Program-made: the position numbers and the translations under genes | The notes under the pieces: generated by a model | Told to the model about the DNA's origin: nothing | Database searches by the model: none | Seen by the model: only the letters and a program-made list of their open reading frames with translations | Shown here: positions 6,198-39,633 of the stretch, piece by piece | How the letters are laid out: each line of letters begins with the position of its first letter | Numbering within the stretch: position 1 is the stretch's first letter | Assembly (NCBI RefSeq): GCF_900187965.1 | Contig: NZ_FZNL01000024.1 | Span: 1-64,000, forward strand | Length of the DNA: 64,000 nucleotides | Source: Flavobacterium sp. ov086 | GTDB taxonomy: Bacteria; Bacteroidota; Bacteroidia; Flavobacteriales; Flavobacteriaceae | Direction of reading: 5' to 3'

Positions 6198-6345
6198 ATC
6201 AACGCTAAATATTGTGGGAAAAATAAATATACTCACTAATTATTTTTTACCGCAAACAGCGCAAAGATTTTTATCTAAGAATATGCCTTAGAAAGCACAG
6301 AGTTCACAAAGCTAAATCAATACAAAGCTTTGCTCCCGATAGCTA
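6198..6345. repeat. Dispersed intergenic repeat, family A, copy 1
   Basis: This stretch shares a long mosaic similarity with 42175-42385: 'gatcaac.ctaaat.ttgtgg', 'atatactcac.aattattttt', 'taccgcaaa..gcgcaaag' and 'agttcacaaagct..tcaa.acaaagctttg'. It is non-coding, lies in the gap 6118-6512, and is followed by two copies of 'gctcccgata.ctat' (near 6331 and 6388). It is probably a decaying genome-wide intergenic repeat. Nothing else is recognised in this gap. Confidence 0.7.
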
Positions 6346-6512
6346 TCTGGATTGCCTTTTATAAAAACTAAGATTAAAAAAACTTAGCTCCCGATAACTA
6401 TAAGGACTGTATAATTTTTTCTATTTGGAATTTATAAATTTTGCAAAAAAAAAAGTCGTTGCAATTCTTTGAATTACAACGACCAATAAAAACCAACCAG
6501 TCCAAAATTTTC

Positions 6513-21449: not shown

Positions 21450-24400
21450 CTAGTTTAAGAAGTTCATTACTTTGAAAGATTTTGTTTTTCCTTCTTTGTT
21501 TGTTACAACAACTAAGAACAATTGTTTCGTTGAGAAACTTTGATCCTGTAGCAGAATTTCTTTATTATTCTGAATATTTTTATGACTTACTAAAGTTTGT
21601 CCAAGGATGTTAAATACATCAACCTGAGCGATCTCTTCGGTATCATTTGTAACTGATAATGCATTGTTTTTAAAGTATGCTATCGTTGCACTGCTTTTTG
21701 AAGGAACAGCATCAAGCGCTAATGTTTTTGCTGTTGACTGTGAAGCAAAATAAGCAGCATAGGCTTTAGATAATTCAGATGAATTACCACAAGAAGATGC
21801 ATCCCAGTTTACAGACCAAGTCATTAAACCTCTTAAAGAAGGATATGGTCCGCCTGGCTGCATAGTGTATGTTCTTCCTGTAAAAGTGGTTCCGGTTCTT
21901 AAATAATGCATAGCATTAATTCCTTCTGTAGGCGTTAAATAACCGCTACCTGCAGCACTTGGACAAGCTGGTAATGCAATAAGAACTTTTGAAGGCGGTA
22001 AACCATCAAAATGCATTCCTGTTGTACCAATGTTATACCCTTTTATCACCATATCAGTTAGGGCTGTTACCATGTTTGCTTTCTTAGCAGAACCATAATA
22101 TTGACCATCTAATCCGTTTTCTCCTCCTGTATTATACAATTGTACAGCTAACAAATCCAATTCATTACGTAAGTTTTGAATGATTGGCAAGAAAGAACCA
22201 AAAGTATCTGTATAGGTAGAATATCCTCCTTGTACGTATTGTGTTTCCGGAGCTGCAGTTAATAAAAATCCAGGACCATAGTAAGCTTTTAATTCTTTGA
22301 AAGCATCTACTACGTTTTTTAATCTTGGATAAGCAGAAATACCTGCATAAGAAATATCTCTTAAACCTCCTGCATTAAAATTCATTGATCCGCCTTCAAA
22401 ATCAATATCAACTCCATCAAATTGATACTCATCAATAATTGCTTTCAGACCATTAACAAAAATATTTTTTTGAGTTACATTGTCCAAAACAACATGACCA
22501 TTTTGACCTCCAATAGAGACAATAACAGGAACGCCGCTATCTCTTAAGGATTTTATATCATTTTTCAATAATTGCTTATTGAAAACACCATTGGTCAAAT
22601 ATCTAGTATCATTTGTAGTTAATACTGGTGTATAACCATCACGATTAACTGTTTCTACGAAAGAATAATCAACTACGTTAAACTTACTTCCCACCATTTG
22701 AGAAAAATATAAAAATGGAGCACCAGTATTTTCCCAAGAATGTGCATATCCTAAAAGAACTTTAGATGGTAGTGGAATGAATCTATTCGTGCTCACCGGA
22801 GCAATTTTAATTGTATTGTTTAATGTAGTTACACCAGATTGATTATCGGTTGCTTTGATTACAACTGGATAATCCTGATAAGCAGATGGTGTAAAATTAT
22901 ACGTATAAGTATTATTTGTACCTGCTGTCATGTTAAATGTACCTCCATTTATTGTAATAGTAACACCTGAAACCGATCCGTTACTATCAACAGCTGTAAC
23001 CGAAATTGGCACAACCTGGAAAGAACTTTGGTTTACAGTAGTATTAGATGGTGAGTTCCAAGTAATTACCGGCAATGAATTAGGGCAGTTTGCACCTGAA
23101 CAACTTAATGTAAAACTATATGTTTTTGCATCTGTTGTTCCGTTTGATGCAGTAGCCGTAACGGTTAACGTATGACTAAGCGAAAACTGATTTGCTACTG
23201 GTGTCCAAACCGATGTATAAGTTCCAGAAGAATTGGTAGCACTCAAGGTTTGTCCATCTAAACTAAATACAACTGATGAGATTGTAGTGGCATCAGCAGC
23301 ACTTAATCCAACACTTGCAACAAAATTAATTGCTGATCCTAAATTTATAGCAATCGCAGAAGCTGTTGGCGCTGTAATGGTAACCACTGGCTTAGTCGTA
23401 ACCACCGCTTGTCTATTAAAATTATAAACTGTTGAAGTTGTTGGAACTGCAAAGTTGGCTAAGTTATTTGGGTAGTAAGTTACATCACCATTTTCCCACG
23501 CATTTAATTTCAAACTTAAAATTTGTGTATAACCTGCTACAACTGCATTATCGAAAGTATAATTTCCTGATGCATCTGTTGTTGCCAAAACACTTTTCCA
23601 GTTGTGTGTACTATCTGTCCAAGGTAAAACGATTTCTACTTTTGCTCCAGCTACTGCAACTGTTCCGTTTTTAACTGTTCCGCTAATTAAGTTTGCCTGA
23701 ACTTGTGCTGCTTTTGCAGTTGAGCTTGTATTAAAATTATAAACCGTTGGATTTGCAGGAACAGGGAAATTTGCCAAATTTGATGGTAAATAAACCACTT
23801 CTCCATTCTCCCAAGAATTTAATTTTAAACTTGTAACTGTTGTATATCCAGCTACAACTGAATTATCAAAGCTGTATTTTCCTTGTGCATCTGTTGTCGC
23901 AATAACGCTTTTCCAGTTGTGTGTGCTATCTGTCCAAGGTAAAACGATTTCTACTTTTGCACCAGCTACGAGAACTGTTCCATTTTTAACTGTTCCGCTG
24001 ATTTTGCTTGTAGGAACTACAATAGCATCCTGTGAGAAGTTTAATGTTTTGTTCGCAATTAAATTGGTATAAACTGTTGAAGCCGGAGTGTAGGTTTGTC
24101 CTGCTAAAGCAGCAGTCACCGTATAAGTTCCGCCTGACGGTAAATTCGCAATTGTATAAACTCCGCTTGAATTTGTAGTTGCTGTAAAAGTTCCTCCTGT
24201 TGAAGTTGCTGTAACCGTAACTCCTGAAACTGGAGTTGTTCCGTTAAGAACTGTTCCGCTTACTGTATAATATACAATTGGCGCACCTTGAGCAAAATTC
24301 AATGTTTTGTTTGCATCAATTGCGTTATAAACTGTTGAAGTTGGCGTATAAGAGAATCCTGTTTTTGCAGCTGTAACCGTAAATTTAAGTCCTGCTGTTA

Positions 24401-26189
24401 AACCTGCAACACTGTAAACTCCGCTTGCATTTGAAGTCGCAGTTAAAACTGTTGCTCCTGAAGTTGCTGTAACTGTTACACCAGAAACTCCTGTTGCTCC
24501 ATTAAGAACTGTTCCGCTTACTGTATATGTAGGCTGAGATCCGTTAATGATTACTCCAGTTTGATTAGTAGTAACGTTTGTCAAAGTTACAGGCGTAAAA
24601 GTATAAGTAGCTTTTAACGCTGTAAGGATATAATTTTGTCCCGTAGTAAGGTTGCTGAATGTGAAATTACCTCCTGTAGAAACCACAGTTTGCAATACTA
24701 CATTACTTGCATTACGTAATTCAACAGTTACATCCGGAACTAAAGCTGTTCCGGTTTTTACCGAACCTGCAATACTTACTGTTCCAGGAACGATGCTTCC
24801 AAATGATGTATCAACCTGAGTTAATAATGAATTTGCAATAGAACCTCTTGTATCCTGAGATAATTCCCAAACCATACCTCCGGCAAGATTTCTTGATTTA
24901 ATATATTGTACTTTTAAATCCATTGATTGTTTATCTTCATAGGAGATAAACTGTTTTAAAGTAGCATTGTACAAATAAGGAACTTTTGTTGTATTATCAA
25001 AGTATCTTACCCATCCTGCAGCTGCTGCAGCTGCTGTAACCTGCATTGTATTTGGATCTAAATAAGCGTGTGAATTGGTAACCGGATTTCCGACAAGATC
25101 ACAAATTTCAATACTTCCTGATTTTTCGCACGCTGCCGGACCATCCCAAGTTCCTGTTGGATTTTGTGGATTTGTACATCCGCTAACTATATCTCTTGGT
25201 GCTGAAACGAATAATCCATTTGTTGAATTTGTCGCTACATGATCAAATTTCTTTCCGTAGAAAGGTAATCCCATGATTAATTTATTCGCAGGAAAACCAA
25301 CAACGTTCAAATATTGATTTGTCAATTCGTCTAATGATTCTGATTGTGTGGCGCCATAAAGCGGATCATTTGTGTTTCCGCTGGCATATAATGGTGCGTT
25401 GTAGCATGTTTTATCATACCAGTTTCCACCAAAATCATATCCAAAATACGTGATATAATCACAATAAGTAGAAATATCTTCTGTCATTCCGTATTGTGCT
25501 CTGTTTGATGGTCCTAAATATTGTTTGGCAACATTTCGAACATTGTTTCCAGCAGCAATCGAGATTAATTTATTTGGCATTGCCTGACGCATTGCTTTCA
25601 ATAAATACACTAAATTTTTGTTGTCGTCCGGGCTGTACTTTTGCGGAGGAATTGGTGCTCCGTTAATTACTTCGGTACCGTCTGTTCCTCCAGAAAGAGG
25701 ATATTCCCAGTCAATATCGAATCCATCAATAAATGGATATTTGGTAATAAAGTTTGCCATATCTGTAGCTAAAGCAGCTCTTGCAACAGGACTTGCTGCA
25801 ATTGGAGAAAGATCCTGACCTTTTGTCCATCCTCCAACAGAAATTAAAATTTTAAGATGTGGATACTTTTCCTTAAGTTTCATTAAGTCATAAAAGTTTC
25901 CTTTTACAGGAGCATCCCATGGAATTCCACCTTCCATATGCTCAAAATCAGCATACGAATCCAAACATAACAACTTTGTATTCTCCGGATGTGCAGGATC
26001 GAAAGTTGTTCCATAAAAAGAATAATTCAAATGCGTCAATTTACTTCCGTCTATCTTCGGAATATTAAAATCCCGGGCATAAATGGCCCATTGCGCATAG
26101 TACCCTACTACTTTTTTACCGTGAGCTGGTTGGGCTAACGCGAGTAAGGGAAACAGTAACAAAAAAAGCAATCTGTAATAATGTTTCAT
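21450..26189 (-). CDS. chiA: Giant secreted chitinase with two GH18 domains (ChiA type)
   Basis: 1579 residues from 'MKHYYRLLFLLLF', which begins a good signal peptide; the ATG 39 bases upstream adds an unlikely leader. The N-terminal GH18 domain (about 25-470) has 'SVGGW' and the catalytic DxxDxDxE motif 'DGFDIDWE' (155-162). Then come several CNA-B-like modules, including two near-identical 105-residue tandem copies containing 'VEIVLPWTDSTHNWKSV', and Ig-like modules. The C-terminal GH18 domain (about 1130-1480) has 'SIGGQNG' and 'DGVDIDFE'. The last ~70 residues form a T9SS sorting domain of type A ('VDVFNILGQTLVS'). It closely matches F. johnsoniae ChiA in size and layout. It should digest chitin outside the cell after T9SS export. 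Confidence 0.96.
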   Translation of the reverse strand: MKHYYRLLFLLLFPLLALAQPAHGKKVVGYYAQWAIYARDFNIPKIDGSKLTHLNYSFYGTTFDPAHPENTKLLCLDSYADFEHMEGGIPWDAPVKGNFYDLMKLKEKYPHLKILISVGGWTKGQDLSPIAASPVARAALATDMANFITKYPFIDGFDIDWEYPLSGGTDGTEVINGAPIPPQKYSPDDNKNLVYLLKAMRQAMPNKLISIAAGNNVRNVAKQYLGPSNRAQYGMTEDISTYCDYITYFGYDFGGNWYDKTCYNAPLYASGNTNDPLYGATQSESLDELTNQYLNVVGFPANKLIMGLPFYGKKFDHVATNSTNGLFVSAPRDIVSGCTNPQNPTGTWDGPAACEKSGSIEICDLVGNPVTNSHAYLDPNTMQVTAAAAAAGWVRYFDNTTKVPYLYNATLKQFISYEDKQSMDLKVQYIKSRNLAGGMVWELSQDTRGSIANSLLTQVDTSFGSIVPGTVSIAGSVKTGTALVPDVTVELRNASNVVLQTVVSTGGNFTFSNLTTGQNYILTALKATYTFTPVTLTNVTTNQTGVIINGSQPTYTVSGTVLNGATGVSGVTVTATSGATVLTATSNASGVYSVAGLTAGLKFTVTAAKTGFSYTPTSTVYNAIDANKTLNFAQGAPIVYYTVSGTVLNGTTPVSGVTVTATSTGGTFTATTNSSGVYTIANLPSGGTYTVTAALAGQTYTPASTVYTNLIANKTLNFSQDAIVVPTSKISGTVKNGTVLVAGAKVEIVLPWTDSTHNWKSVIATTDAQGKYSFDNSVVAGYTTVTSLKLNSWENGEVVYLPSNLANFPVPANPTVYNFNTSSTAKAAQVQANLISGTVKNGTVAVAGAKVEIVLPWTDSTHNWKSVLATTDASGNYTFDNAVVAGYTQILSLKLNAWENGDVTYYPNNLANFAVPTTSTVYNFNRQAVVTTKPVVTITAPTASAIAINLGSAINFVASVGLSAADATTISSVVFSLDGQTLSATNSSGTYTSVWTPVANQFSLSHTLTVTATASNGTTDAKTYSFTLSCSGANCPNSLPVITWNSPSNTTVNQSSFQVVPISVTAVDSNGSVSGVTITINGGTFNMTAGTNNTYTYNFTPSAYQDYPVVIKATDNQSGVTTLNNTIKIAPVSTNRFIPLPSKVLLGYAHSWENTGAPFLYFSQMVGSKFNVVDYSFVETVNRDGYTPVLTTNDTRYLTNGVFNKQLLKNDIKSLRDSGVPVIVSIGGQNGHVVLDNVTQKNIFVNGLKAIIDEYQFDGVDIDFEGGSMNFNAGGLRDISYAGISAYPRLKNVVDAFKELKAYYGPGFLLTAAPETQYVQGGYSTYTDTFGSFLPIIQNLRNELDLLAVQLYNTGGENGLDGQYYGSAKKANMVTALTDMVIKGYNIGTTGMHFDGLPPSKVLIALPACPSAAGSGYLTPTEGINAMHYLRTGTTFTGRTYTMQPGGPYPSLRGLMTWSVNWDASSCGNSSELSKAYAAYFASQSTAKTLALDAVPSKSSATIAYFKNNALSVTNDTEEIAQVDVFNILGQTLVSHKNIQNNKEILLQDQSFSTKQLFLVVVTNKEGKTKSFKVMNFLN
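23560..24000 (-). repeat. Tandem 315-base module duplication inside chiA
   Basis: Sequences around 23597-23655 and 23911-23970 are nearly identical, with a 315-base period (105 residues). The high DNA identity over the core, including synonymous positions, implies a recent duplication or ongoing recombination between the modules. Confidence 0.85.
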
Positions 26190-26697
26190 AATTAAATTAA
26201 TATTGGTTAATAAAAAGAAATATTCCAATCACAATAAATTACATACCGCAACTCTGTATATAAAATGCAATAATTGGGATTCAATCAATTGCAAAAAAAA
26301 GATTGCAATCAACTGGAGATTAATTCATATTACTTTTAAAAATAAATATTACTATTACTGATTTTATCCATAATCATTAGTGAATAGTAGTGATTGATAT
26401 TTATTAAATTTTAAAAATTAGTTTAAATACAAAAGATAAATTCGGGGTCTATCTAGTTTTATGCTCTATTTGGTTTTGTCATGTTTTTAATTCTATTCTT
26501 CTTTATTTGGTTTTAAGGGTTACTATTTGATTTCTATAATTCTTATATTTATATTCGTTTTAACAGGTTTTTATAGCGATTTTATTCAGTTTTACCATAA
26601 TTATCTCTACTAGAAAATTCTAGTAGAGATAAAAAAATTACTAAATAATCATGGTAACTTAAACTTACTAAACACTAATTCAAACCAAACTTTCTCT
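26190..26697. other. chiA upstream region (508 bases)
   Basis: A non-coding, very AT-rich gap between the hexosaminidase and chiA genes. It should hold the chiA promoter, but no good TTTG/TAnnTTTG pair is visible. Near 26280-26325, 'caatcaattgca' and 'caatcaactgga' form an imperfect direct repeat around 'attgca' arms, a possible regulator site. A strong hairpin at 26601-26632 is listed separately. Confidence 0.5.
26601..26632. other. 15-bp perfect hairpin downstream of the GH20 gene
   Basis: 'ttatctctactagaa' pairs perfectly with 26618-26632 around a two-base centre. Outer 'accat' / 'atggt' bases can extend it. No T-run follows on either strand, so it is not a simple terminator. It lies in the mRNA between the hexosaminidase and chiA genes and could be a 3' stabiliser, processing site or operator. 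Confidence 0.65.
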
Positions 26698-28764
26698 TTA
26701 TATCAATTTCTTAAGACTTGCATAAACTGATAACTCAACATCTGCATGATCTTTTGTATTACATTGTTCGATTAGATTTTTTAAATCATCTGCTTTTAAA
26801 GTTGATTTATTATCCAATACAAGTAATAATTCTTGTGATGCATCATTCAATTTCTTCGACAAAGGCAAAATTGGCTGTACTAAAGGTGCATTTGCACTTA
26901 ACTCAATTAATCCTTTATTTACTGCGATCCATTTGTTAAAAAATGCTGCAACTTTTTCCTTATTTTCCGGCGTTTTACTAGCCAAATACTGATTTACGGC
27001 ATCATCAAAAGCTAAAGACTCTTTAGCGTCTGGTCCACAGGCATCTGCAAAAAGTGTAAACGGTGAGTACATTTGGTATTCTGTTCCGCCTTTATTACGT
27101 GTGTATCCTTTTAATGGCTCACAAACATTTGCAAATTCATTAAGCGATTTTATGTTTTGATTGTTTGAGATATTTCTCAAGATCACCGCTTTGTTACGAA
27201 TGTGTGTTAATCCTAGTTCTTCCAATCTAAATGATACTACATCAAGACGTTTGCGCATACTTGCTAAATCTGTAATATCCTCGGCTGACCAAAGTCTCTC
27301 TGCAATTGCTGCTGTTCTTGGCCACAATCTTGAATCTATTGTTGTTGAAGTTGCAAGCTCTGTCCACATTGTAGCTTCTCCACCTAAAATTCTTGCTTTT
27401 TCTTCGGCAGTTAAATTGGCTCCTTTTGGCATTGGGTCATTTAAATAATGACTTGCAACAGGGTACATTAAATCGATATAATATCCGTTTGACAAAACTG
27501 TTTTATATCCTTTTTTTACTGCATCTACTAAAGATTGTCCGGCAACCATTCCTTCATTTGGACCTCTCCAAGAATGAATAATAGCGTCTTTTGACATGTT
27601 CTTAGTCATAATTTCTTCCCAACCCATTAACTGTTTTCCATGTTTTTTAAGCATCGGAACTAATTGCATGGTAAAATAAGTCTGTAACTCATGATTGTTA
27701 GCTAACTTATTTTTCTTCATGAATTCTTGAATTTTCGGGTTTGAGTCCCAATCTTTTCCTTCATTTTCATCTCCTCCGATATGAAAATAAGCTCCTGGAA
27801 ATAATGGACAAACCTCATCAAAAATTTCACTTAATAATTGATATGTTTTAGGATTTGAAGGATCTAATGTTGGCGAAAAAATACCAGCATTTCTTTCAAT
27901 TCCATAGGTAGCAATTGCTGTACCTTGAATATTTTTTTCAGAAGTTCCTCCTGTCAATGTAATCACCTTACTTCCAATTTCCGGGTAAGCCGTTAAAATT
28001 GCAGATCCATGACCAGGAACATCTATTTCCGGAACTACCAAAATACCGCGCTCATCAGCATATTTTACGATATTTTTAATTTCCTCTTGTGTATAATACA
28101 TCCCATCTGAAGCTACATCTATAAGCTTCTTATGTTTTTTCATTTCGATTCTCCAACCTTGATCATCAACCAAATGCCAGTGAAAAACATTCATTTTCAT
28201 TGCTGCCAATCCGTCAATGTTTCTTTTGACAACATCAATTGGCTGAAAATGCCTTGCAACATCAATCATCAAACCTCTCCATGTAAATCTTGGAAAATCA
28301 GATATTTGTGAGATCGGGAAATAAAATGAAGTATTATTATTCTGCAACATTTGCAATAACGTTTCAAGACCATGTAAAGCTCCTAAATCGCTTGTTGCAT
28401 TTATTGTAATTTGATTTTGTTTGATGTCTAAATGATAACTTTCATCTTCGTATAAACCAATTTTTCCGCTTTTAGTACAGTTAATCTGAAGCTCAGCTGT
28501 TGGCACTTCATTTAATTTTGTAATAAAACCTTGTTGAAAAAACATACCAGTTCTACCGTCTAAGCGACGCAAAAAGCGAGTTACTCCACTAAAAATACGT
28601 GGGTTAGGGTTTCCGGTAATGTTCACTTTAAAATTTTTGTTTAAAGCAAAATTCCCATCGTTTAAAACAACACTTTGAGGCCAAGGCATAAGATTTAGCT
28701 GCTCTTTTTGAATTTGAGCACTAGAGGTTACACCTGCTAATAGTAGAACTAATAAATATTTCAT
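26698..28764 (-). CDS. GH20 beta-N-acetylhexosaminidase
   Basis: 688 residues from 'MKYLLVLLLAGVTSSAQ', a signal peptide; an ATG 39 bases upstream is less likely. After a GH20b N-terminal domain (about 25-150) the catalytic barrel starts with 'FPRFTWRGLMIDVARHF'. It contains 'VPEIDVPGHGSA', the catalytic Asp-Glu pair in 'FHIGGDENEG' (near residue 330) and 'LMGWEEI'. A helical tail ends with 'SVYASLKKLI'. It should cut GlcNAc from chito-oligosaccharides in the periplasm. It lies between chiA and the nagB fusion in the same direction, as in the F. johnsoniae chitin locus. Confidence 0.95.
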   Translation of the reverse strand: MKYLLVLLLAGVTSSAQIQKEQLNLMPWPQSVVLNDGNFALNKNFKVNITGNPNPRIFSGVTRFLRRLDGRTGMFFQQGFITKLNEVPTAELQINCTKSGKIGLYEDESYHLDIKQNQITINATSDLGALHGLETLLQMLQNNNTSFYFPISQISDFPRFTWRGLMIDVARHFQPIDVVKRNIDGLAAMKMNVFHWHLVDDQGWRIEMKKHKKLIDVASDGMYYTQEEIKNIVKYADERGILVVPEIDVPGHGSAILTAYPEIGSKVITLTGGTSEKNIQGTAIATYGIERNAGIFSPTLDPSNPKTYQLLSEIFDEVCPLFPGAYFHIGGDENEGKDWDSNPKIQEFMKKNKLANNHELQTYFTMQLVPMLKKHGKQLMGWEEIMTKNMSKDAIIHSWRGPNEGMVAGQSLVDAVKKGYKTVLSNGYYIDLMYPVASHYLNDPMPKGANLTAEEKARILGGEATMWTELATSTTIDSRLWPRTAAIAERLWSAEDITDLASMRKRLDVVSFRLEELGLTHIRNKAVILRNISNNQNIKSLNEFANVCEPLKGYTRNKGGTEYQMYSPFTLFADACGPDAKESLAFDDAVNQYLASKTPENKEKVAAFFNKWIAVNKGLIELSANAPLVQPILPLSKKLNDASQELLLVLDNKSTLKADDLKNLIEQCNTKDHADVELSVYASLKKLI

Positions 28765-28923
28765 TTTTACTGTTTTTGAAAAGATGTTATCCTGAGACAA
28801 CATTAATAATAGATAATAGAAACAAAACTCAGAATGATCTCTCTATTGAACCTCACTAATCGCTATGAAATCAATCTGAATTTTGAATTTGATTCGCTCC
28901 AATCCGAATCTTAAAAAACAACT

Positions 28924-30861
28924 CTAGTAATCAAAACGCTTAAATGCTTCAATTGCTTCGTATTCAGCCAATCCTAATTCATCATATAAAATAGCTGTAT
29001 TTTTATTACGGTCTTCGGCTCTAACCCAGAATTCTCTTGAGTCATTTCCTTGAAACATTACTCGGTCTTTTTGAGATTGGTGATATAAAATTGCATGACG
29101 TTTCAACAATACTTCTGATGGAGAAAGGGGAACTGCCATATCAATTTCATGAATATCCCATTCGTGCCATGCGCCTCTGTACAACCATAACCAACAGTCG
29201 TCCATGTATTTTTCTGGTTTTAACTCTTTCATGGCGGCAAAGATCGCGTTTAGACAAACTTCGTGTGTTCCGTGTGGATCTGCCAAATCTCCTGCAGCAA
29301 ATACCTGATGTGGTTTTATTTGTGCAATAATATCTTTTACGATGGCAATATCTTCAGGTCCTAACGGATTTTTCTTCACTTGTCCTGTTTCGTAAAACGG
29401 AAGATCTAAAAAGTGTGTGTTTTCATCTTTTAAACCAATATATCTTGTCGCTGCATAAGATTCTCTTCGACGGATAAGTCCTTTTAATTTTCGAACTTCC
29501 AATGAATCGATTTGATTTTCTGATTTGCTATTCAAAAACTCAATTACAGATTTGAAGTTGATTCCGCTTCCGGCTTCACCAATAAAATCTTTGGCAACCT
29601 CAGCAAATTTCAATGCCTCGTCGTCTGTAACAGCAATATTTCCGGAGGTTTGATATACAACATGTACATCGTGACCTTGTTTTATCAATTTTGAAAAAGT
29701 TCCTCCCATAGAAATCACATCGTCATCCGGATGTGGACTAAAAAGAATCACTCGTTTTTTTGCTGGATTGGCTCTTTCCGGACGGTGTGAATCGTCAGTA
29801 TTTGGTTTTCCACCTGGCCATCCTGTGATGGTATGCTGTAATACGTTGAACATATTAATGTTCAAATCATAAGCAGAACCTTCTTGCGCCAAAAGATCAG
29901 ACATTCCGTTATTGTTGTAATCACGGTCTGTTAATTTTAATATAGATTGTTTTGTTTTTTGGCACAACCAAACAATCGCTTTGCTTTTTAATTCCTGATT
30001 CCAAATGCATTCTCCAACTAACCAAGGCGTTTTGAAACGTGTTAACTCAGATGCTGCAGACTGGTCTAATACGAAAGTTGCATTAGGATGATTTTGTAAA
30101 AATGTCGCAGGAACTTCTGAACTGATATCTCCCTGAATAGTTCTCTTGATGATATCGGCTTTGTTTTGTCCCCAAGCCATTAATACGATTCTTTTAGATC
30201 TCATGATCGTAGAAACTCCCATGGTAATCGCTCTTTTAGGAACGTTATCTATACCATTAAAATCTGATGAAGCATCTACTCTTGTAATGTGATCCAGTGT
30301 AATAATTCTGGTTCCAGAGTTGATATGTGATCCCGGTTCATTGAAACCTACGTGACCAGTACGACCAATACCTAATAATTGAAAATCAAGTCCTCCTGCA
30401 TTTTTAATATTCATTTCATAATCGATGCAATATTGATTTAATTCATCAATATGTACCGTTCCATCAGGAATATTAACATTATCTGGGTTGATATCAATAT
30501 GATTAAAAAGATGCTGATGCATGAAATAGTGATAGCTCTGGTTGTTCTCTTTAGTCATTGGATAATATTCATCCAAATTGAAAGTAATTACATTGCTAAA
30601 ACTTAATCCTTCTTCTCTGTGCATTCTCACTAATTCCTCATATACTTTTATAGGAGAAGAACCTGTTGCCAAACCTAATACGCAAGATTTACCTTTTTCT
30701 TGTTTAGATCTAATTAATTGCGCAATTTCCTGCGCTACAATTACTGAAGCTTCTACAGAACTTTTGAAGATTTCGTTATGGATTTTTTCAAATCGAGTTT
30801 CTTCAAATTTCCCCGCGCTTTTATAGCTGATATCAGGTTTTATTTCTAAAGCACTTTTCAT
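28924..30861 (-). CDS. nagB: NagB-PIG-L fusion: glucosamine-6-phosphate deaminase with deacetylase-like domain
   Basis: 645 residues. The first half (about 20-290) is a NagB domain: 'GLATGSSPIKVYEEL', 'FNLDEYYP' (Asp97, Glu98), 'GIGRTGHVGFNEPG'. The second half (about 370-620) is a PIG-L/LmbE-type zinc deacetylase domain: 'LFSPHPDDDVISMGG' and 'DLADPHGTHEVC'. NagB turns GlcN-6-P into fructose-6-P and ammonia. PIG-L proteins deacetylate GlcNAc groups, so one polypeptide could deacetylate GlcNAc-6-P and then deaminate it. No separate nagA is in the window. Fusions of this size are known in Bacteroidota and usually named only after NagB. Confidence 0.93.
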   Translation of the reverse strand: MKSALEIKPDISYKSAGKFEETRFEKIHNEIFKSSVEASVIVAQEIAQLIRSKQEKGKSCVLGLATGSSPIKVYEELVRMHREEGLSFSNVITFNLDEYYPMTKENNQSYHYFMHQHLFNHIDINPDNVNIPDGTVHIDELNQYCIDYEMNIKNAGGLDFQLLGIGRTGHVGFNEPGSHINSGTRIITLDHITRVDASSDFNGIDNVPKRAITMGVSTIMRSKRIVLMAWGQNKADIIKRTIQGDISSEVPATFLQNHPNATFVLDQSAASELTRFKTPWLVGECIWNQELKSKAIVWLCQKTKQSILKLTDRDYNNNGMSDLLAQEGSAYDLNINMFNVLQHTITGWPGGKPNTDDSHRPERANPAKKRVILFSPHPDDDVISMGGTFSKLIKQGHDVHVVYQTSGNIAVTDDEALKFAEVAKDFIGEAGSGINFKSVIEFLNSKSENQIDSLEVRKLKGLIRRRESYAATRYIGLKDENTHFLDLPFYETGQVKKNPLGPEDIAIVKDIIAQIKPHQVFAAGDLADPHGTHEVCLNAIFAAMKELKPEKYMDDCWLWLYRGAWHEWDIHEIDMAVPLSPSEVLLKRHAILYHQSQKDRVMFQGNDSREFWVRAEDRNKNTAILYDELGLAEYEAIEAFKRFDY

Positions 30862-30971: not shown

Positions 30972-32552
30972 TTAGAAGTTAGGAGCTGTAGTATCCCACC
31001 AAAGTCTGGTTCCACCATTGTCAGGTCCGCCTAACTTAGCAAGTCCTGTTTCGTAACCACCTTTGTTACCTGTTTTTTCAGCTTGAACAAAGTTGATTCT
31101 TCTAACACCTAAAGTAGATGAAATTGTACCTCCACTATAATTTTTGATTACCGGGAAAAGTTTAGGATATCCTGTTCTTCTGTATTCAGACCATGCTTCT
31201 TGTCCTTCCGGGAAACCTGCAATCCATTTTTGAGTAATGATTTTTTGCAATTTCACTTCATTAGTTGCAGCAGCATCCCAAGCAACAGTTACATTGTTTA
31301 CAGCTGGTGAATTGTTTTCAGGGAAATTAGGATCTACATAATCAATTGCTTTTTTAACATTGTCAGCATAATATGCAGAGGCTCCTGAAACTCCTCTTTG
31401 ATCAAATGAAGCCTGAATACCTAATTTATATAGTGCTTCAGCGTCACCGCCCATGTTCCATCCTCTTAATGCACCTTCAGCTCTTAAGAAATAAGCTTCG
31501 GCAGTAGTCATTAAAACAACTTCTTTTGATCTGATTACTGAACCAACTCCAGAAAAATCCTGGTGATCTGCTTTTGCAGCAATAGCGATACCTGTACGGA
31601 TACCTTTATATTGTCCAGGAAATTGAGTTGATGTATCAAAGTAAACTGGCATTCTAGGATCATCATATCCTTTTAAGATTGATTCCATATCTGCAGACAT
31701 ACGGATGTCTAACCATCCACCACTAATAGTTGCGATAGGGTTTGTGTAAACAGCAGATACAACTTTGAACAAATCAGCATTTGTAGTGAAAACTCCAAAT
31801 TTATGAGCTACAGCTTTTTCAGCTTGTAATTTAGCAACAGCAGGGCTAATTTTTACCACACGCATTGCTAATCTTAAACGTAATGTGTTAGCAAATTTTA
31901 CCCAAGCTTTATAATCTCCTTTATAACCTGATTCATCTGTTGAAGCAAAAACACTTACATCTCCTGCGTCAACTCTTTTTGTTAATTCAGTAACAGCAAT
32001 ATCAAGTTCATTGAACATTTGAGTATAAACTTCTTCTTGTGAATCGTAAGCAATTGTAGTATCTAATGTACCAAATTTAGAATAAATGATTGGTCCAAAG
32101 ATATCCGTAAGTCTATGCATTCCTTCTACTTTCAGAATCAATGATAAAGCATAAAACTGATCGTATTTACCTTTACTTTTGTTTGCAATATCATTAGCAT
32201 TATACATGATAGTTTTGTAGGCAGTTTCCCAACAAACACCATTCCAGTTGTCAACTAATGAATAAGTTGTATTATTAATTCCTCCGGCAAACGGAGTTGG
32301 ACTTGCCATATAACCTGACCAGACATCACCATTTAATCCTTGTTGCAATTGATACAAATCTGGTGGATTTAGGATTTGGATATTATTAAACATCGGAGAA
32401 AACCCTCCTTTAATATGATTAAAATCCTGTTCAAAATCTACTGGAGTAATACCATTTTTATTGGTATTTATGTCATCAAAATTATCTGTACAACCAACTA
32501 CTGTCAGCAAAGAAACACAGATAGCTGTTTTTATTATTTTATTTAGTTCCAT
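30972..32552 (-). CDS. SusD/RagB-family chito-oligosaccharide-binding lipoprotein
   Basis: 526 residues with a lipoprotein signal ending 'LLTVVGC' (Cys21) followed by 'TDNFDDINTNKNG'. The body is the helical TPR-like fold of the SusD-like group, with 'LRLRLAMRVVKI' and 'AEAYFLRAEGALRGW'. It ends 'GLAKLGGPDNGGTRLWWD', the group's usual C-terminal wording. It should sit on the cell surface and cap the SusC channel encoded immediately upstream (10-base gap). Chitin oligomers as ligand are inferred from the locus. Confidence 0.95.
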   Translation of the reverse strand: MELNKIIKTAICVSLLTVVGCTDNFDDINTNKNGITPVDFEQDFNHIKGGFSPMFNNIQILNPPDLYQLQQGLNGDVWSGYMASPTPFAGGINNTTYSLVDNWNGVCWETAYKTIMYNANDIANKSKGKYDQFYALSLILKVEGMHRLTDIFGPIIYSKFGTLDTTIAYDSQEEVYTQMFNELDIAVTELTKRVDAGDVSVFASTDESGYKGDYKAWVKFANTLRLRLAMRVVKISPAVAKLQAEKAVAHKFGVFTTNADLFKVVSAVYTNPIATISGGWLDIRMSADMESILKGYDDPRMPVYFDTSTQFPGQYKGIRTGIAIAAKADHQDFSGVGSVIRSKEVVLMTTAEAYFLRAEGALRGWNMGGDAEALYKLGIQASFDQRGVSGASAYYADNVKKAIDYVDPNFPENNSPAVNNVTVAWDAAATNEVKLQKIITQKWIAGFPEGQEAWSEYRRTGYPKLFPVIKNYSGGTISSTLGVRRINFVQAEKTGNKGGYETGLAKLGGPDNGGTRLWWDTTAPNF

Positions 32553-32562
32553 TTTTTTAATT

Positions 32563-35500
32563 TTAGAAAGTTACATTTAAATTAAGACCGATACTTCTAG
32601 TAGAAGGCAAACCATAAATATCAACACCTTGTAAACCTTGACCTGTACTTAAAGCAACGTTTGGATCAAAAGGAGCATCTTTGTAAATAAAGAATAAGTT
32701 TCTGGCAATTAGTGAAATACTTGCAGTTTGAATGAATGGTAGAGTTTTTGCATTGAAAGTATATCCAACTGAAACCTCTCTAACACTTACATTTGTTGCA
32801 TTGTAAATATATTCTCCACTAATACCTGCTCTACCTCCAACTTGTTTATAGTAAGATTCTGCATCCATTTTAGTAACAGCAACACCATCGCTTGCTCTTA
32901 CAGCGTTGATAGTAACACCACCAGCATTTCTAGCATCACCTGATGCTTTTGAAACTCCAAAACTATCATTTTGTGCTTCTGTTAAACTCATTACATCACC
33001 TCCAAAACGACCATCAACTAATATAGTTGCAAAGAATGATCCGAATTTGAATGAGTTAGAAAGGCTTAACATAAAGTCAGGATTAGAATTACCAACTTCT
33101 TGGAAATCTGTTTTTTGGAATGTTCCGTCATCATTTAATAAAGATCTTCCTTGTGCATCTTTTTTAATGTTGATACCTTCAATAACTCCAAATGGTCTTC
33201 CTTCAATCAATGAGTACCTGTAACTGTTTACTCCAGGATTTGTTAAGTTAATTCTACCTCCTAATTCTTCAGGAATTTCTTTTACTTTGTTTTTGTTTTG
33301 AGAATAGTTTACCATTGCATCCCAAGAGAATTTATCTCCTTTGATGATTGATGCATTTACCATAAGCTCAATACCTTTATTTTCTATACTACCTGCATTA
33401 ATTCCGTAGAAATCAACACCTTGAACATTTCCAACTGGAGCAACAACTTGCAAATATTGGTTTTTAGTTTCTGAATGATAGTAAGAAAAATCAAATCCTA
33501 ATCTACTGTTAAAGAATCTCCACTCTGTTCCAATCTCATATTCAGATTTTAATTCAGGCTTCAAACTTGTACCTGTTTTTGGAGCAACTAATGGATTGTA
33601 TTTTGTTCCGCTTCCTTGTGGGTAATAGTTTGTAGGAGTTGTAATAAAAGGAGCAACGTCATTACCTGCCTGAGCATAAGCTACACGAACTTTACCATAG
33701 TTAATAAATTCCGGTAACGTAGTCATTTCGCTGATCAAACCAGTCAAACCAACAGATGGGTAAAAATATCCACCTTCTTCAGTGTTTACTAATGTAGATG
33801 ACCAGTCTTTTCTTCCTGTAAGATCTAAGAACAACATGTCTTTATAACCAAAAGTAGTTGCAGCAAAGATTGATTGAATTTCTTTGTTAGAATCAATTGT
33901 TTGGTAGTTTTCTGCATTGTTATTGAAGTTATGCAATGTAAACCAGTTTGCATATTTCAATCCCCCACCAACACCTGAATCTAAAATTGTTTTTTGATTA
34001 ATCATTGTGTTTCTAACACTTGTACCTACGTTAGCATTGAAAGAAAAATCAGATCCAATTTTTGTATTAATTGTAGCGATTAAATCTGCGTAACGTTGTG
34101 TGCTTAAAGCATCTTCATGATAGTATCTACCATTTATGTGAGATAAAGCTCCTTGAGTTGTTGCGTAGATATATTTGTCATATCCACTTGAGATTCTATT
34201 ATAGTTATATCTCGCAGCAATACTTAACCAACCAGTTGCTTTATAGTTTAAAGATAAAGCTCCGTTGAAAAAGTCATTTGTATCTTCAGATTTATTTCTG
34301 TTAATTCCCCAGTATGGGTTTTGCATAATATCTCTGTTTGTCATCCAGTTTTGAGCCATTAAGTTTCTTGTTGGATCAAATAATTCATAATTATCTTTGT
34401 AATAATTAAAGTCATTTCCACGTGGCATTAAATAAACTCCTGTAAGTGGGTTGAAATAAAGACCGTTAACTGGTTTGTTATCTACTGACTGAGAAGTATA
34501 GTTTGCATTAGCTGCAAAAGTCAATTTATCTTCAAAGAATTTAGCTGTCTGACGAATTCCAAAGTTATTTTTCTTTAAAGTGTTTCCTGGAATAATTCCT
34601 GAAGCAGAAGTATTAGCGTAAGAAAAAGTTGTAGAAGAATAATCATTAGCTGTAGAATATCCTAAAGAAGTAATTTGAGTAACCCCTGTTTCAAAGAAAT
34701 CCTTAACATAGTCATTTGTTTTTTGTTTTGCTCCCCAAGTTTCATCAGCACCTTTTACAGCAACGTAATCTGATTGAAATTTAGGCATGTAAGCAGCACT
34801 TTCGAAAGTAGTTACAGAAGAAGCAGTAATGTTAGCTTTTCCGTTTTTAGCTTTTTTAGAAGAAAGTAAAATTACTCCATTTGCTCCCTGGCTACCGTAT
34901 AATACAGAAGCAGCCGCACCTTTTAATACTGTCATTCCTTCGTAATCATCAGGATTAATCAAAGACACAACGTCTCCACCATCACGGTTACCCCCAGATA
35001 AACTACCAAATGTATCATTTGGCTGACCTGAACCAGCATTCAATATAGGAATACCATCGATAACATATAAAGGTTGGCTATTAACAACTGAAGAGTTTCC
35101 ACGGATAACTACTTTAGTAGATCCACCAGTACCTCCTGAGCTTTTTGTTACAGCAACACCGGCAACTTTACCAGCGATTGTATTGATAAGGTTGGCATCT
35201 TTTACACGAGTCAACTCTTCTCCTTTAAGTTCCTGAGCTGCATAAGTCAAAGATTTTCTTGTTTTCTTAATACCTAATGACGTTACAACAACTTCACTTA
35301 AAGCATTTGATGACGCTTGTAGCATTTTAACATTAATTGTAGAAGCATCACCTACAATTATTGATTGTGTTTCAAGACCAACATAGCTAAAAACTAATGT
35401 TTGTCCTTTTTGTACTTCAATTGCGTACAAACCATCAAAATCGGTCGTAGAACCTTTTTGACCTCCTTGTACAGCAACAGATGCCCCTGGCAATGGCATC

Positions 35501-35598
35501 CCGTCAGAATCCGTAATCACACCCTTGACATTTTTTACTTGTGCAAGCGAAACTTGCGCCGTAAAAACAATCATAAAGATTAAGAAAATTTTTTTCAT
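32563..35598 (-). CDS. SusC/RagA-family TonB-dependent outer membrane transporter
   Basis: 1011 residues: signal peptide (1-19), a carboxypeptidase-regulatory-like domain (about 22-100, '[18 protein letters not shown]'), TonB-dependent plug (about 110-240, '[10 protein letters not shown]', 'YVIDGIPI', '[13 protein letters not shown]'), then a 22-strand-type barrel ending in phenylalanine ('GLNLNVTF'). It should import chito-oligosaccharides with TonB energy, together with SusD. It is the first gene of the minus-strand chitin operon (susC, susD, nagB, GH20, chiA). Its upstream region carries a near-consensus promoter and a palindromic element. Confidence 0.96.
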
Positions 35599-35657
35599 GT
35601 TTATTTATTTTGTTAGTTATGAGGTAAAATTATTCTTAAGGTATTGTTAAAAAAAAT

Positions 35658-35690
35658 AAATTATACAAACAGCAATAAATTTTAAACAAA
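35658..35690 (-). promoter_or_regulatory. susC promoter
   Basis: On the minus strand, TTTG (complement of 35687-35690) is followed by 21 bases and then TATAATTT (complement of 35658-35665), close to the Bacteroidota -33/-7 consensus TTTG / TAnnTTTG. The mRNA leader would be about 50 bases. The palindromic element at 35713-35732 lies just upstream of the -33 box. Confidence 0.6.
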
Positions 35691-35696
35691 CGACAT

Positions 35697-35732
35697 AAAA
35701 CAATCAATAATCCGTTTTCCGAAAACGTTTTC
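35697..35732 (-). promoter_or_regulatory. Candidate activator/operator site upstream of susC (copy 1)
   Basis: It contains two overlapping palindromes: 'cgttttccgaaaacg' (35713-35727) and the perfect 12-base 'gaaaacgttttc' (35721-35732). The 33 bases 35697-35729 recur with 29 identities at 36072-36104. It sits directly upstream of the -33 box, where an activator would bind. The adjacent LytTR regulator is the natural candidate. LacI-type proteins favour such palindromes too, but no LacI gene is in the window. Confidence 0.55.
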
Positions 35733-35960
35733 ATGATGACATATTCTAACGTTTTTTACTTATATGTGCTTTTTAATTAAAAAAATAAGAGATTTAGTTA
35801 ACAAATGTTTAATCTATAATAAAGAGGTAATTATCTGATTTTTAGATTTAAAATCATTTAATTTTAAATAACAAACATTTAATTTTAACAAAACATTACA
35901 AACTAGATCTTAAAACAATAAAAGCTTATTAGGCATGACTTTATATTTGAGATTTAGTTT

Positions 35961-36070
35961 TTAGTTTACATCCAACCAAACTTTACTGATCCAATCGTCC
36001 TTTCCTCCCATTCTTGCAACAGCTTCTAAATGATTTTTCTCGTTTTTCTGCATCTCATCATTAGGACAAA
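35961..36070 (-). pseudogene. C-terminal remnant of a second SusD-family gene
   Basis: Read on the minus strand, this stretch encodes about 35 residues ending in a TAA at 35961-35963: '..NDEMQKNEKNH', then 'LEAVARMGGKDDWISKVWLD', then 'VN'. It aligns with the intact SusD C-terminus ('GLAKLGGPDNGGTRLWWD'), sharing the spacing of the Gly-Gly, Asp and Trp-x-Asp positions. There is no start codon and no rest of the gene. Immediately beyond it (36072-36104) lies a second copy of the susC-upstream element. I read this as a scar: an internal deletion removed a second susC and most of its susD. Confidence 0.65.
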
Positions 36071-36071
36071 C

Positions 36072-36104
36072 AAAACAATCAACAATATGTTTTACGAAAA
36101 CGTT
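36072..36104 (-). promoter_or_regulatory. Second copy of the susC-upstream element (orphaned)
   Basis: 29 of 33 bases match 35697-35729, including 'aaaacaatcaa' and 'acgaaaacgtt'. In copy 1 a promoter and susC follow; here the sequence changes at about 36066-36071 ('gtttgt') straight into the SusD remnant. The copy may have lost its promoter, or may now act on the divergent sensor-kinase gene that starts at 36242. Confidence 0.6.
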
Positions 36105-36241
36105 ATACCATAGAAATAACTTATTAATTGCCTTTTAGTACAAAATAATATTCAAAAGAATTGTGTTTTACCAACTAATTGTTTAAAGTTGCACATTATT
36201 TACAATGAGAAACCAACCAAAGCAATAATTACTACTATAAA

Positions 36242-37294
36242 TTGGGCGAAATTCAAAAATTGAAATTTGACATTAAACTTCAAAATCATATTTGGTTCTG
36301 GGGTACTTACTTCACTCTTAACTTCTTAAGATGGGGAGCTTATTTTAATGATTACCCCTATTCCTTCAAATCAAACTTAATTGAGTTCTCGCTACATATT
36401 CCTTTAGTTTATTTCAATCTTTTTGTGTTAGTACCCAGATATGTATTAAAACAGAAATATATTACATATACTTTTTCATTGCTGGCAAGTCTATTTGGGG
36501 TTTATTTATTAAAAACAGCACTTACCTATTATATAATATCAGAGAATATCTGGCCGGAAGCTAATCGTGAGTATCATCCTTTTGAGATCAATCATATTGT
36601 AGCAGTATGCATTGGCGAATTGTATGTTCTTGCAATGGCATCTTCTGTTTATCTTACTTTGACCTGGTTACGAGAGCGAGAAAGAAACAGATCATTAAGA
36701 GAAAATCAGTTTAAAATCAAGTTAAAGTATCTTGAAAACCAGATTCAGCCACATTTTTTCTTCAATACCTTAAATAACCTTTATGCATTATCACTAGAAT
36801 CTTCAAATAAGGTTCCTGATGTAATTATAAAACTATCAAATTTGATGGAATATGTGTTATATGATGTAAAAGGGACAAAATTTGTTCCTTTAATTAAAGA
36901 AATTGATTATATTCAAAATTACATCGAAATAGAGAAGTTACGTTTTGAAAATGTAGAAGTTACGATAAACCTGGAATCTAATATTGATGATATTGTTGTT
37001 CCTCCACTAATTTTCATTTCTTTGGTCGAAAATGCCTTTAAACATGGGAGTTTAAACAATCATAACTTAAAAATAAAGATAAACTGTAAAATTATTGACA
37101 ATAAAATCTTAGATTTTGAAATCTTAAATAATTTTGTAATTTCACAAAATCTTAATCAAAAAGGAGGAATTGGATTAGTCAATACCAAAAAACGATTAAA
37201 ATTAATTTATAAGAATAATTTCAGTCTTAAACACGACACTAAATTCAATTACTATATAATCCGTTTGCAAATACCTATTAATGATGAAGATTAA
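36242..37294 (+). CDS. LytS-type membrane sensor histidine kinase of the chitin locus
   Basis: 350 residues. Four membrane helices (about 18-36, 48-66, 75-98, 118-140) precede a linker and a His_kinase domain: 'ENQIQPHFFFNTLNNLYAL' (His171), 'FISLVENAFKHG' and 'GGIGLVNTKKRLKLIY'. There is no ATG start: the frame opens with TTG at 36242, and another in-frame TTG lies at 36260. Its 3' end overlaps the regulator gene by 14 bases, so translation is coupled. It is divergent from susC. It probably senses a chitin product and controls the locus, by analogy with the two-component pair in the F. johnsoniae chitin locus. Confidence 0.9.
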   Translation: MGEIQKLKFDIKLQNHIWFWGTYFTLNFLRWGAYFNDYPYSFKSNLIEFSLHIPLVYFNLFVLVPRYVLKQKYITYTFSLLASLFGVYLLKTALTYYIISENIWPEANREYHPFEINHIVAVCIGELYVLAMASSVYLTLTWLRERERNRSLRENQFKIKLKYLENQIQPHFFFNTLNNLYALSLESSNKVPDVIIKLSNLMEYVLYDVKGTKFVPLIKEIDYIQNYIEIEKLRFENVEVTINLESNIDDIVVPPLIFISLVENAFKHGSLNNHNLKIKINCKIIDNKILDFEILNNFVISQNLNQKGGIGLVNTKKRLKLIYKNNFSLKHDTKFNYYIIRLQIPINDED

Positions 37295-37985
37295 ATGCGT
37301 GTTGATCGATGATGAGCCATTAGCTATCAAAGTCCTGCAGAATTACTTTACCAATTTTACAGATTTTGAGGTAATTGGTACATTTAATAATTCTCTGGAA
37401 GCGCTCGATTTTATAAACAGCACTTCTGTAGATGCTGTTTTTCTGGACATTAATATGCCAATGATGACTGGATTTGAATTGATTAGCTTAATCGAAAACA
37501 AAACTAAAGTCATTATCACAACTGCGTTTAGAGAATTTGCTGCTGAAAGTTATGATCTTGATGTTTTGGATTATTTAGTAAAACCTATTCCGCTGCCAAG
37601 ATTTATAAAATGCATTAATAAAATCACCACCGAATACAATTTAAAAAACAATATTAAAGTAGAAACCACCAAAGGAGATTCTCATATTTTTATCAAAGTC
37701 GATAAAAAAATGATGAAAATTAATATTGAAGAAATTTTATTTGTCGAAGGAATGAAGGAATACATAAAAGTTGTAACTCCTGATAAAACCTATATTACAC
37801 ACAAATCTTTAACTTCATTATCTGAAGAATTGCCCGCAGACCGCTTCTTACGAATCCATAAATCGTATGTAATTGCCTTAAATAAAGTAAAATCTATAGA
37901 GGGAAACCGCATCCAGATTCAATCTTACACCATCCCTATTGGTAGAAATTATAGTAAAGAAGTAAAAAACAAAATTCTGGAATAA
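37281..37985 (+). CDS. LytTR-type response regulator
   Basis: 234 residues; two consecutive ATGs (37281, 37284) can start it. The receiver domain (1-115) has 'CVLIDDEP', phospho-acceptor Asp56 in 'VFLDINMPMM' and Lys in 'LDYLVKPIPLPRF'. The LytTR DNA-binding domain (about 130-234) has 'HIFIKVDKKMMKI', 'FVEGMKEYIKVV', 'FLRIHKSYVIAL' and 'IPIGRNY'. It overlaps the kinase gene. It should bind sites upstream of susC and perhaps the transporter gene; repeats at 35697 and 36072 are candidates. Confidence 0.94.
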   Translation: MMKIKCVLIDDEPLAIKVLQNYFTNFTDFEVIGTFNNSLEALDFINSTSVDAVFLDINMPMMTGFELISLIENKTKVIITTAFREFAAESYDLDVLDYLVKPIPLPRFIKCINKITTEYNLKNNIKVETTKGDSHIFIKVDKKMMKINIEEILFVEGMKEYIKVVTPDKTYITHKSLTSLSEELPADRFLRIHKSYVIALNKVKSIEGNRIQIQSYTIPIGRNYSKEVKNKILE

Positions 37986-38160: not shown

Positions 38161-39633
38161 ATGAGTTCAGAAAATGTTCAAACCAAATGGGGACAGTTTA
38201 TCTCTTTGATAATTGTTTTCTTCTTTTGGGGTTTTGTTGGTTCAGCCAATGATATCCTTATTCCAGTATTCAAAAAAGTATTTACCTTATCTCAAGTACA
38301 ATCACAATTAGTAGCTTGGGCGTTTTATGTTTCTTATTTTGTAGGTTCTATAATTTTCTTTATAATATCTTTAAAAGTAGACATTTTACAAAGATTCGGA
38401 TATAAGAAAACACTTTCTGCCGGATTACTTTTATCCGCTTTTGGATCATTTTTATTCATTCCAGCAGCAACAATGGAAAGTTTTCCATTCTTCTTAACCG
38501 CTTTATTTACAATAGCTTTAGGTTTTTCAATTCAACAAATCGTAGCAAATCCTTTAGCTATTAAAATGGGAAGCCCACAAACCGGAGCTCACCGTTTAAC
38601 ACTTGCAGGAGGAATAAACTCTTTTGGAACAACAATTGGAGCTATTCTTTTAGGAATCGCTTTGTTTGGAATGGGAGACGATAAAAAAACATCTCTTTCA
38701 TTAGAAGATATCAAACTACCTTTTATAATTTTAGGTCTTGCATTTATTGCTGTAGCAGTTTTTATGTACTTTTCTAAAATCGAAGATCCTGCAAAAGAAG
38801 AGGAAGAAGTAGTTAAAGTTGCACACGAAAAATTCAATATTCTTGATTACCCACAATTGTATTTAGGAATGTTAGGAATCTTTATTTATGTTGGAACTGA
38901 GGTAACTATCATCAGTAATCTACCAGCTTTATTACACACTTCTGAATTCGGAAATGTACTGGAAGATGCAATTGCGCCTTTTATCGCCCTTTACTGGGGA
39001 AGCTTAATGATTGGTCGCTGGAATGGTGGAGTTAACGTTTTCAACACTTCAAACTTAGTAAATACAGCACTTAAATTTATTGTTCCTGCAGTTGCATTTG
39101 GAGTAATTATTGGCGCTAATATATTTGCTAAACACGATGTTTCTTCTTTCTACATTTACCCAATCTGGATTTTATTGTTTATCGCAATAAGTTTTGTTGG
39201 TGGTAAAAATGCCGGAAAAACTTTAATGCTTTTCGGAATCTCAGGTTTAGTAATGATGTTTGCAGGATTAGTTTATCCAGATCCGTCTATTGCTAAATTC
39301 TTCTTTATCTCTGGAGGTTTATTCTTGTCTATTATGTGGCCGTCAATCTTCGATTTAGCGATTGCTGGTTTAGGAAAAAATACCGGAAAAGCATCTTCAT
39401 TCCTGATTATGATGATTCTTGGAGGAGGAGTTATTCCTTTAGTTCAGGGAAGTATCTGTGATATCGACCTTACTAGCCCAGAAGGAATCTTTGGTATTAC
39501 ATGGACACATTTCTCTTATATCGTACCACTTCTTGGTTTTGCATATTTAGGATTCTATGGCTTTTATTGCCCTAAAATCTTAAAAAGACAAGGAATCGAT
39601 CATAACATTCAAAGCGAAGGCGGAGGTCACTAA
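38161..39633 (+). CDS. nagP: MFS amino-sugar transporter (NagP/FucP-like)
   Basis: 490 residues with about 12 membrane helices, of the FHS (fucose/glucose-galactose) group: 'FFFWGFVGSANDILIPVFKK' in helix 1, 'FGYKKTLSAGLLL', 'QQIVANPLAIKMG', and a second-half 'GRWNGG' in place of the usual GR signature. NagP-type members carry GlcNAc across the inner membrane. Its place beside the chitin enzymes supports GlcNAc as substrate. It follows the LytTR regulator by 175 bases and ends in a strong terminator. Confidence 0.9.
   Translation: MSSENVQTKWGQFISLIIVFFFWGFVGSANDILIPVFKKVFTLSQVQSQLVAWAFYVSYFVGSIIFFIISLKVDILQRFGYKKTLSAGLLLSAFGSFLFIPAATMESFPFFLTALFTIALGFSIQQIVANPLAIKMGSPQTGAHRLTLAGGINSFGTTIGAILLGIALFGMGDDKKTSLSLEDIKLPFIILGLAFIAVAVFMYFSKIEDPAKEEEEVVKVAHEKFNILDYPQLYLGMLGIFIYVGTEVTIISNLPALLHTSEFGNVLEDAIAPFIALYWGSLMIGRWNGGVNVFNTSNLVNTALKFIVPAVAFGVIIGANIFAKHDVSSFYIYPIWILLFIAISFVGGKNAGKTLMLFGISGLVMMFAGLVYPDPSIAKFFFISGGLFLSIMWPSIFDLAIAGLGKNTGKASSFLIMMILGGGVIPLVQGSICDIDLTSPEGIFGITWTHFSYIVPLLGFAYLGFYGFYCPKILKRQGIDHNIQSEGGGH

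Follow-up and report, generated by a model that had tools for sequence, protein, structure and literature searches.

A cusDII remnant beside cusS points to loss of a second SusC/SusD-type pair from a Flavobacterium chitin utilization locus

Results

Gene content of the chitin utilization locus

The window, by which we mean the whole stretch of DNA analyzed here, comprises 64,000 nt of Flavobacterium sp. ov086 (GCF_900187965.1, contig NZ_FZNL01000024.1, positions 1 to 64,000 of the forward strand), a single strain whose assembly is a 58-contig draft with a rated completeness of 99.99%. It carries a Flavobacterium chitin utilization locus (ChiUL). On the plus strand lie cusS, encoding a sensor histidine kinase (36242..37294; His_kinase, PF06580) and 93.3% identical at the DNA level to its counterpart in Flavobacterium sp. 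JAS (locus L020), and, as identified by domain searches, cusR, encoding a LytTR response regulator (37281..37985), and the MFS transporter gene of the locus (38161..39633). The minus strand holds an intact SusC-like transporter gene, cusCI (32563..35598; domain search and locus comparison), an intact SusD-like gene, cusDI (30972..32552), whose product is the orthologue of F. johnsoniae CusDI (PDB 5J90, E 4.4e-270), and, again from domain searches, a nagB-like gene with Glucosamine_iso and PIG-L domains (28924..30861), a GH20 chitobiase gene (26698..28803) and chiA, an open frame with two GH18 stretches (21450..26228). All the genes by which we recognized a ChiUL are present, namely a two-GH18 chiA, a GH20 gene, nagB, cusSR, an MFS gene and at least one cusC/D pair. 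The PIG-L domain of the nagB-like protein, of deacetylase type, is an extra one. The same genome encodes a further sensor kinase that is 43% identical to CusS (G000:C21:298305-299336), and similar second CusS-like matches occur in genomes G005, G006, G008 and G015.

The ChiUL of F. johnsoniae, as presented in the main text of PMC5127042, shares cusS-cusR, the MFS gene, cusCI-cusDI, nagB, the GH20 gene and chiA with the window; unlike it, the window lacks cusCII, chiB and all of cusDII except its tail. We refer to cusCI-cusDI as pair I and to cusCII-cusDII as pair II, both of the SusC/SusD type. A preliminary description of this DNA had placed two such pairs and an extra GH18 gene in the F. johnsoniae locus, in agreement with that source, where the extra gene is chiB.

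The window's CusCI protein is ≈95% like that of F. aquidurense DSM 18293 (L025) and ≈59% like that of strain JAS, its sister, with a switch from JAS-like to L025-like similarity within the 5' portion of cusCI, at ≈35300-35400. This suggests that a cusCI-cusDI cassette (30972-35300) was exchanged in the window. An exchange exactly at the upstream element described below is not supported, as the switch falls inside the first part of cusCI.

Organization of the cusCI-cusS gap

The gap between cusCI and cusS measures 643 bases. Next to cusS is a region (36105..36241) homologous to the sequence upstream of the cusS-side element in two-pair relatives, followed by the element itself (36072..36104, minus strand); the cusCII leader and gene that lie downstream of it in relatives are gone. 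A joint (36066..36071), read by eye from the alignment of both parental sequences, leads into the last 34 codons and stop of cusDII (35961..36065, minus strand), which were recognized from PDB and Pfam matches and the JAS alignment. Behind these come ≈44 bases of the cusDII-chiB spacer (35917..35960, minus strand; JAS, locus profile and G144 alignments), a second joint where chiB is missing (35905..35917, corresponding to a step from 6545 to 7662 in L153, the locus of genome G144) and the chiB-cusCI intergenic sequence (35730..35904, minus strand), 94.7% identical to L153 over 35905-35450. The gap ends with a second copy of the element (35697..35729, minus strand), whose core starts 129 bases before cusCI, and with the cusCI leader and presumed promoter (35599..35696, minus strand), delimited by comparing leaders among loci. 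The two 33-base copies are identical at 29 of 33 positions (88%), as the preliminary description had it.

The minus-strand peptide at 35961-36065, PNDEMQKNEKNHLEAVARMGGKDDWISKVWLDVN followed by a stop, finds its top match among all PDB sequences in residues 451-484 of the 484 of 5J5U (26/34 identical by hand count, E 1.1e-12); 5J90 is CusDI and 5J5U is CusDII according to the main text of PMC5127042. Its sole Pfam match is to PF12741 (SusD-like; positions 464-495 of 495) with an E value of 0.057, below the curated cut-off. Conversely, the JAS CusDII used as a query recovers the remnant from the whole genome (E 2.7e-10), which together with the 5J5U match rules out a chance resemblance. The preliminary description had called a SusD C-terminus of about 35 residues here and aligned it with the intact SusD of the locus. 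The call of a SusD-family tail is borne out, while the type is corrected: the sequence fits CusDII and the intact protein is CusDI, so a derivation of the tail from cusDI is also ruled out. A CusDII of ≈507 residues has been reduced to its last 34, which leaves out the signal, scaffold and glycan-binding site of a full-length protein, and by its sequence the fragment is a remnant rather than a working CusDII.

We compared the remnant with 45 intact cusDII tails, having set aside 3 of 48. Four of its 34 residues occur in none of the 45, each intact tail having at most two such residues, and two of its substitutions fall at positions invariant across all 45. Of the 34 sites, 10 differ between the remnant and the JAS tail, whereas intact pairs of like cusS identity (n = 15) differ at 2.3 on average and at 7 at most. 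This comparison is inflated because the window's lost allele was nearer that of G144 (six differences) than that of JAS. Its dN/dS against four relatives (0.04-0.19) overlaps that of the four computable intact pairs (0.05-0.14) and is not clearly raised. For these last two reasons, decay of the cusDII tail is only suggested.

Two joints and three blocks

Three pieces of the window align to the JAS locus. Positions 36300-36070 match 10059-9828, ahead of cusCII; positions 36074-35932 match 5120-4978, which hold the cusDII tail and following sequence; and positions 35922-35452 match 4899-4426, running from the upstream side of cusCI into the gene. This mapping leaves a single gap of ≈4.7 kb, and JAS retains intact the order proposed in the preliminary description as ancestral (element, susC-II, susD-II, element, susC-I, susD-I). 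The missing length depends on the reference, being 4.7 kb against JAS and 5.1 kb against G144, and the deletion would have been larger if a subtilase gene (see below) was lost in the same event. At the first joint, cusCII-upstream sequence matches as far as 36070 and cusDII sequence begins to match at 36066, which agrees with the earlier placement near 36066-36071; either a 3-base filler or a slipped match fits the bases there.

We also aligned the gap to a profile of 36 loci, namely L153, L154 and the 34 that contain both pairs and chiB. The gap resolves into three blocks, at model positions 22-172, 4887-5038 and 6204-6449, which follow the order found in intact relatives, with the cusS side first, then the tail of cusDII, the spacer between cusDII and chiB, and the spacer between chiB and cusCI. 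Where the window jumps from the cusDII-chiB to the chiB-cusCI spacer, G144 holds chiB, which argues that chiB was lost separately; relative to L153, the second joint lacks chiB and ≈30-50 bp on each side. The single deletion originally proposed therefore stands for pair II, whereas chiB, located between the pairs in an older ancestor, went in a step of its own. In the JAS locus, chiB is likewise missing; the ends there fall within 4 and 12 profile positions of those in the window, and the sequence at the joint is different. The two loci may share this loss or have undergone it independently.

Searches of the whole genome found pair II at no other place, the best-scoring paralogues being 38% (CusDII), 37% (CusCII) and 44% (ChiB) identical, which rules out relocation of pair II in this assembly. 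A search of 398 genomes of the genus gave matches to some part of the gap in 127; among the matches listed, the joint is spanned only by the window's own. We considered whether the genome really has pair II and the assembler joined across it, given that the two elements are direct repeats in a draft of many contigs. This seems very improbable: the joint connects an element to a cusDII codon rather than an element to an element, pair II is nowhere in a nearly complete assembly, the tail bears the four residues unseen in intact tails, and comparable scars occur in other genomes.

Pair II in relatives

To place the gap among relatives, we marked the pairs and chiB in loci around cusS from Flavobacterium genomes (best 80 of 147), each covered to at most 10 kb from cusS, so that "absent" means absent from the locus. 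Among these 80, pair II, chiB and pair I occur together in 34 loci, both pairs without chiB in 6, pair II and chiB with cusCI out of reach in 8 (owing to a contig end in L079) and a single CI-type pair beside cusS in 32. In the sampled stretches of L086, L089, L092, L093, L094, L097 and L098, pair II and chiB are accompanied by no cusCI-like match. Neither result that the preliminary description had named as refuting its reading was obtained: the fragment matches the SusD family, and a tblastn search found the cusDII tail in 0 of the 32 single-pair gaps (best 80 of 147).

In a quick tree of five flank genes, with SH-aLRT support only and three rows less than half filled, the window and JAS are sisters (SH-aLRT 100). 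An equally quick tree enlarged with cusS, cusR and eight genomes, likewise with three rows under half filled, retains this pairing (98) and places window, JAS, G144, G311 and G126 in a five-row clade (100); two long outgroup rows were flagged in it. All four other clade members have a full-length pair II, which makes the loss private to the window's lineage among the five, and three of the four have chiB, JAS being the exception. Across the 84-row tree (best 80 of 147 loci), pair II requires 16 changes, which become 17 losses under a single gain at the base; the corresponding figures for chiB are 20 and 21. Most simply, the pair II changes are losses, and relatives appear to have lost this pair many times. 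The chiB losses are not all clean: in the two-pair loci L022, L034, L048 and L056, short stretches of chiB can still be aligned (L023 lies outside the set). These are pieces of the chiB start, with the chiB end as well in L034, and represent separate chiB deletion scars.

Deeper genomes carry at this locus one pair (G005 and G030), at least one (G003, where the contig ends), two CI-type pairs (G004) or none in reach (G010), which makes a gain of pair II near the base of the 84-row clade probable; the deepest branches have weak support (69). Over 39 two-pair loci (741 pairs), the rank correlation with flank distance is 0.07 for CusCI, 0.14 for CusCII and 0.18 for CusDII, against 0.55 for both cusS and cusR. 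Allele exchange within the locus is likely from these values, so that transfer could have brought pair II back in some of the 16 cases. Both observations lend something to the idea that the window's single-pair layout is ancestral, with the tail brought in by transfer or partial duplication and nothing deleted. We consider this scarcely credible, because pair II is reconstructed for the common ancestor of the 84 rows on the rooted tree and is present in the four closest relatives, and because the gap preserves cusS side, cusDII tail and both spacers in their intact order.

A conserved element upstream of both pairs

With at most 3 mismatches, a 31-base consensus of the element finds two sites in the window and 0 in 100 shuffles, and the only two perfect matches in the genome are both at this locus. 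A genome-wide motif is not supported, the 7 matches with 1-2 mismatches equaling the 7 of a reversed control. Only the longer element is distinctive, since the 3 window matches to a 15-base core with 2 mismatches (1.1 expected) were reached by 15 of 100 shuffles. When up to 9 mismatches are allowed, the 80 loci (best of 147) contain 124 copies, compared with 1 for the reversed pattern. In this sample a copy lies 122-149 bases before cusCII in 48/48 pair-II loci and 129-130 bases before cusCI in 40/40 loci with cusCI in reach; 28 of the single-pair loci have one copy by the same scan and four have two (L049, L058, L066 and L085). Among the deeper genomes, copies were found at up to 9 mismatches in G003, G004 and G030 and none in G005 and G010. 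The G004 locus (L162) has two close copies, at 9777 and 9932, between cusS and cusC.

Five of the 32 single-pair loci (best 80 of 147) have long gaps and were set aside. In 27/27 of the remaining clean loci, the 60 bases upstream of the single element resemble pair-II copies more closely, while the downstream leader is closer to those of pair I. The element itself is of the pair-I kind more often (22 loci, against 5 closer to pair II). Such hybrid flanks would be expected if recombination between two copies excised the intervening sequence, or if the state with one copy is the older one.

Four loci, L049 (Flavobacterium daemonense JCM 19455), L058, L066 and L087, have a cusS-proximal copy and a spacer as in the window; the L087 copy is degenerate in its second half and was missed by the element scan. 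L049 resembles the window in having a single pair and two elements that enclose a remnant. Unlike in the window, its remnant is the last part of chiB, which indicates that the deletion ran further. Because the L058, L066 and L087 spacers hold no recognizable remnant, we infer rather than observe that these are scars. In all five loci the left block stops within profile positions 157-176; on this profile the start of the element is near 140 and that of cusCII at 262. The cusS-proximal copy may be kept by selection, or this place may be one that deletions favor; both would fit the alignments.

The core of the left element, CGTTTTCG, is intact in all five, and together with the low dN/dS of the tail this could mean that the remnant is kept for a function, such as that of a leader peptide or of a regulatory transcript started from the left element. 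Such a role appears highly unlikely, given that the cusCII leader and presumed promoter are gone, two invariant residues are altered and the L058, L066 and L087 spacers contain nothing recognizably coding.

The same slot can hold a different unit. In G126 (L155:7758-10130), a gene for a secreted subtilase (Peptidase_S8 with a secretion tail) follows the cusS-proximal copy, between cusS and the first cusC. Like pair II, this unit is element-headed and sits beside cusS, and it differs in that its product is a protease of the S8 family and not a SusC/D pair. A similar frame occupies the slot in L085, Pfam having been applied to L155 only, and G144 and G311 have an orphan element without a subtilase gene, their downstream sequences being alike by eye. 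From these cases, the slot beside cusS seems to have been emptied repeatedly. The window's left element, attributed in the preliminary description to pair II, could instead be the cusS-nearest copy of a three-element ancestor.

Discussion

We interpret the cusCI-cusS gap, with high confidence, as the deletion scar of cusCII-cusDII, chiB having been lost by another deletion. An ancestor with the order cusS, element, cusCII-cusDII, chiB, element, cusCI-cusDI would have undergone one deletion that took out chiB and another, of ≈4.7 kb or more, that started just behind the cusS-proximal element and ended before the last 34 codons of cusDII, removing the whole of cusCII with its leader, and cusDII up to the tail. 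The left element and the cusDII tail would be what was left over. The order of the two deletions we can only infer. Pair I is still preceded by an element and leader of its own, so the locus is probably functional with this pair alone.

Work on F. johnsoniae, as given in the main text of PMC5127042, bears on this reading. Of the mutants with one or two pair genes deleted, only those without cusDI were impaired, and growth on chitin was crippled when both pairs were missing. CusDII bound chitopentaose and chitohexaose only, and the authors termed the dual SusC/D pairs puzzling. Their delta(cusCII-cusDII) laboratory mutant resembles the window in having pair II removed and one pair left; the window differs in that its deletion is natural, has other ends and is accompanied by natural loss of chiB. 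Among the papers listed by our literature searches, we recognized none on natural loss of pair II or on this element; single-pair relatives may be drawn in the Figure 2 synteny map of PMC5127042, a source we cite for its main text. The words "promoter" and "operon" are absent from that main text.

By its position and conservation, the element is a putative CusR operator. More speculatively, and with considerable doubt, the ≈31-base element may bound interchangeable operon units that are recurrently lost, the cusS-proximal copy being kept because it would also control cusS-cusR. Each unit, whether a SusC/D pair, a pair with chiB or a subtilase gene, would then stand behind its own copy, and be lost cleanly by recombination between copies or by a deletion starting just behind the cusS-proximal one.

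The scar itself is real, well supported and ordinary in kind, an instance of gene loss; the interesting part is recurrence at one element, and its value lies in the comparative pattern. The repeated deletion ends point to a candidate CusR operator. At least 16 changes of pair II in 84 loci, most simply losses, are natural repeats of the F. johnsoniae pair II knock-out; comparing these loci could show which habitats or forms of chitin keep pair II.
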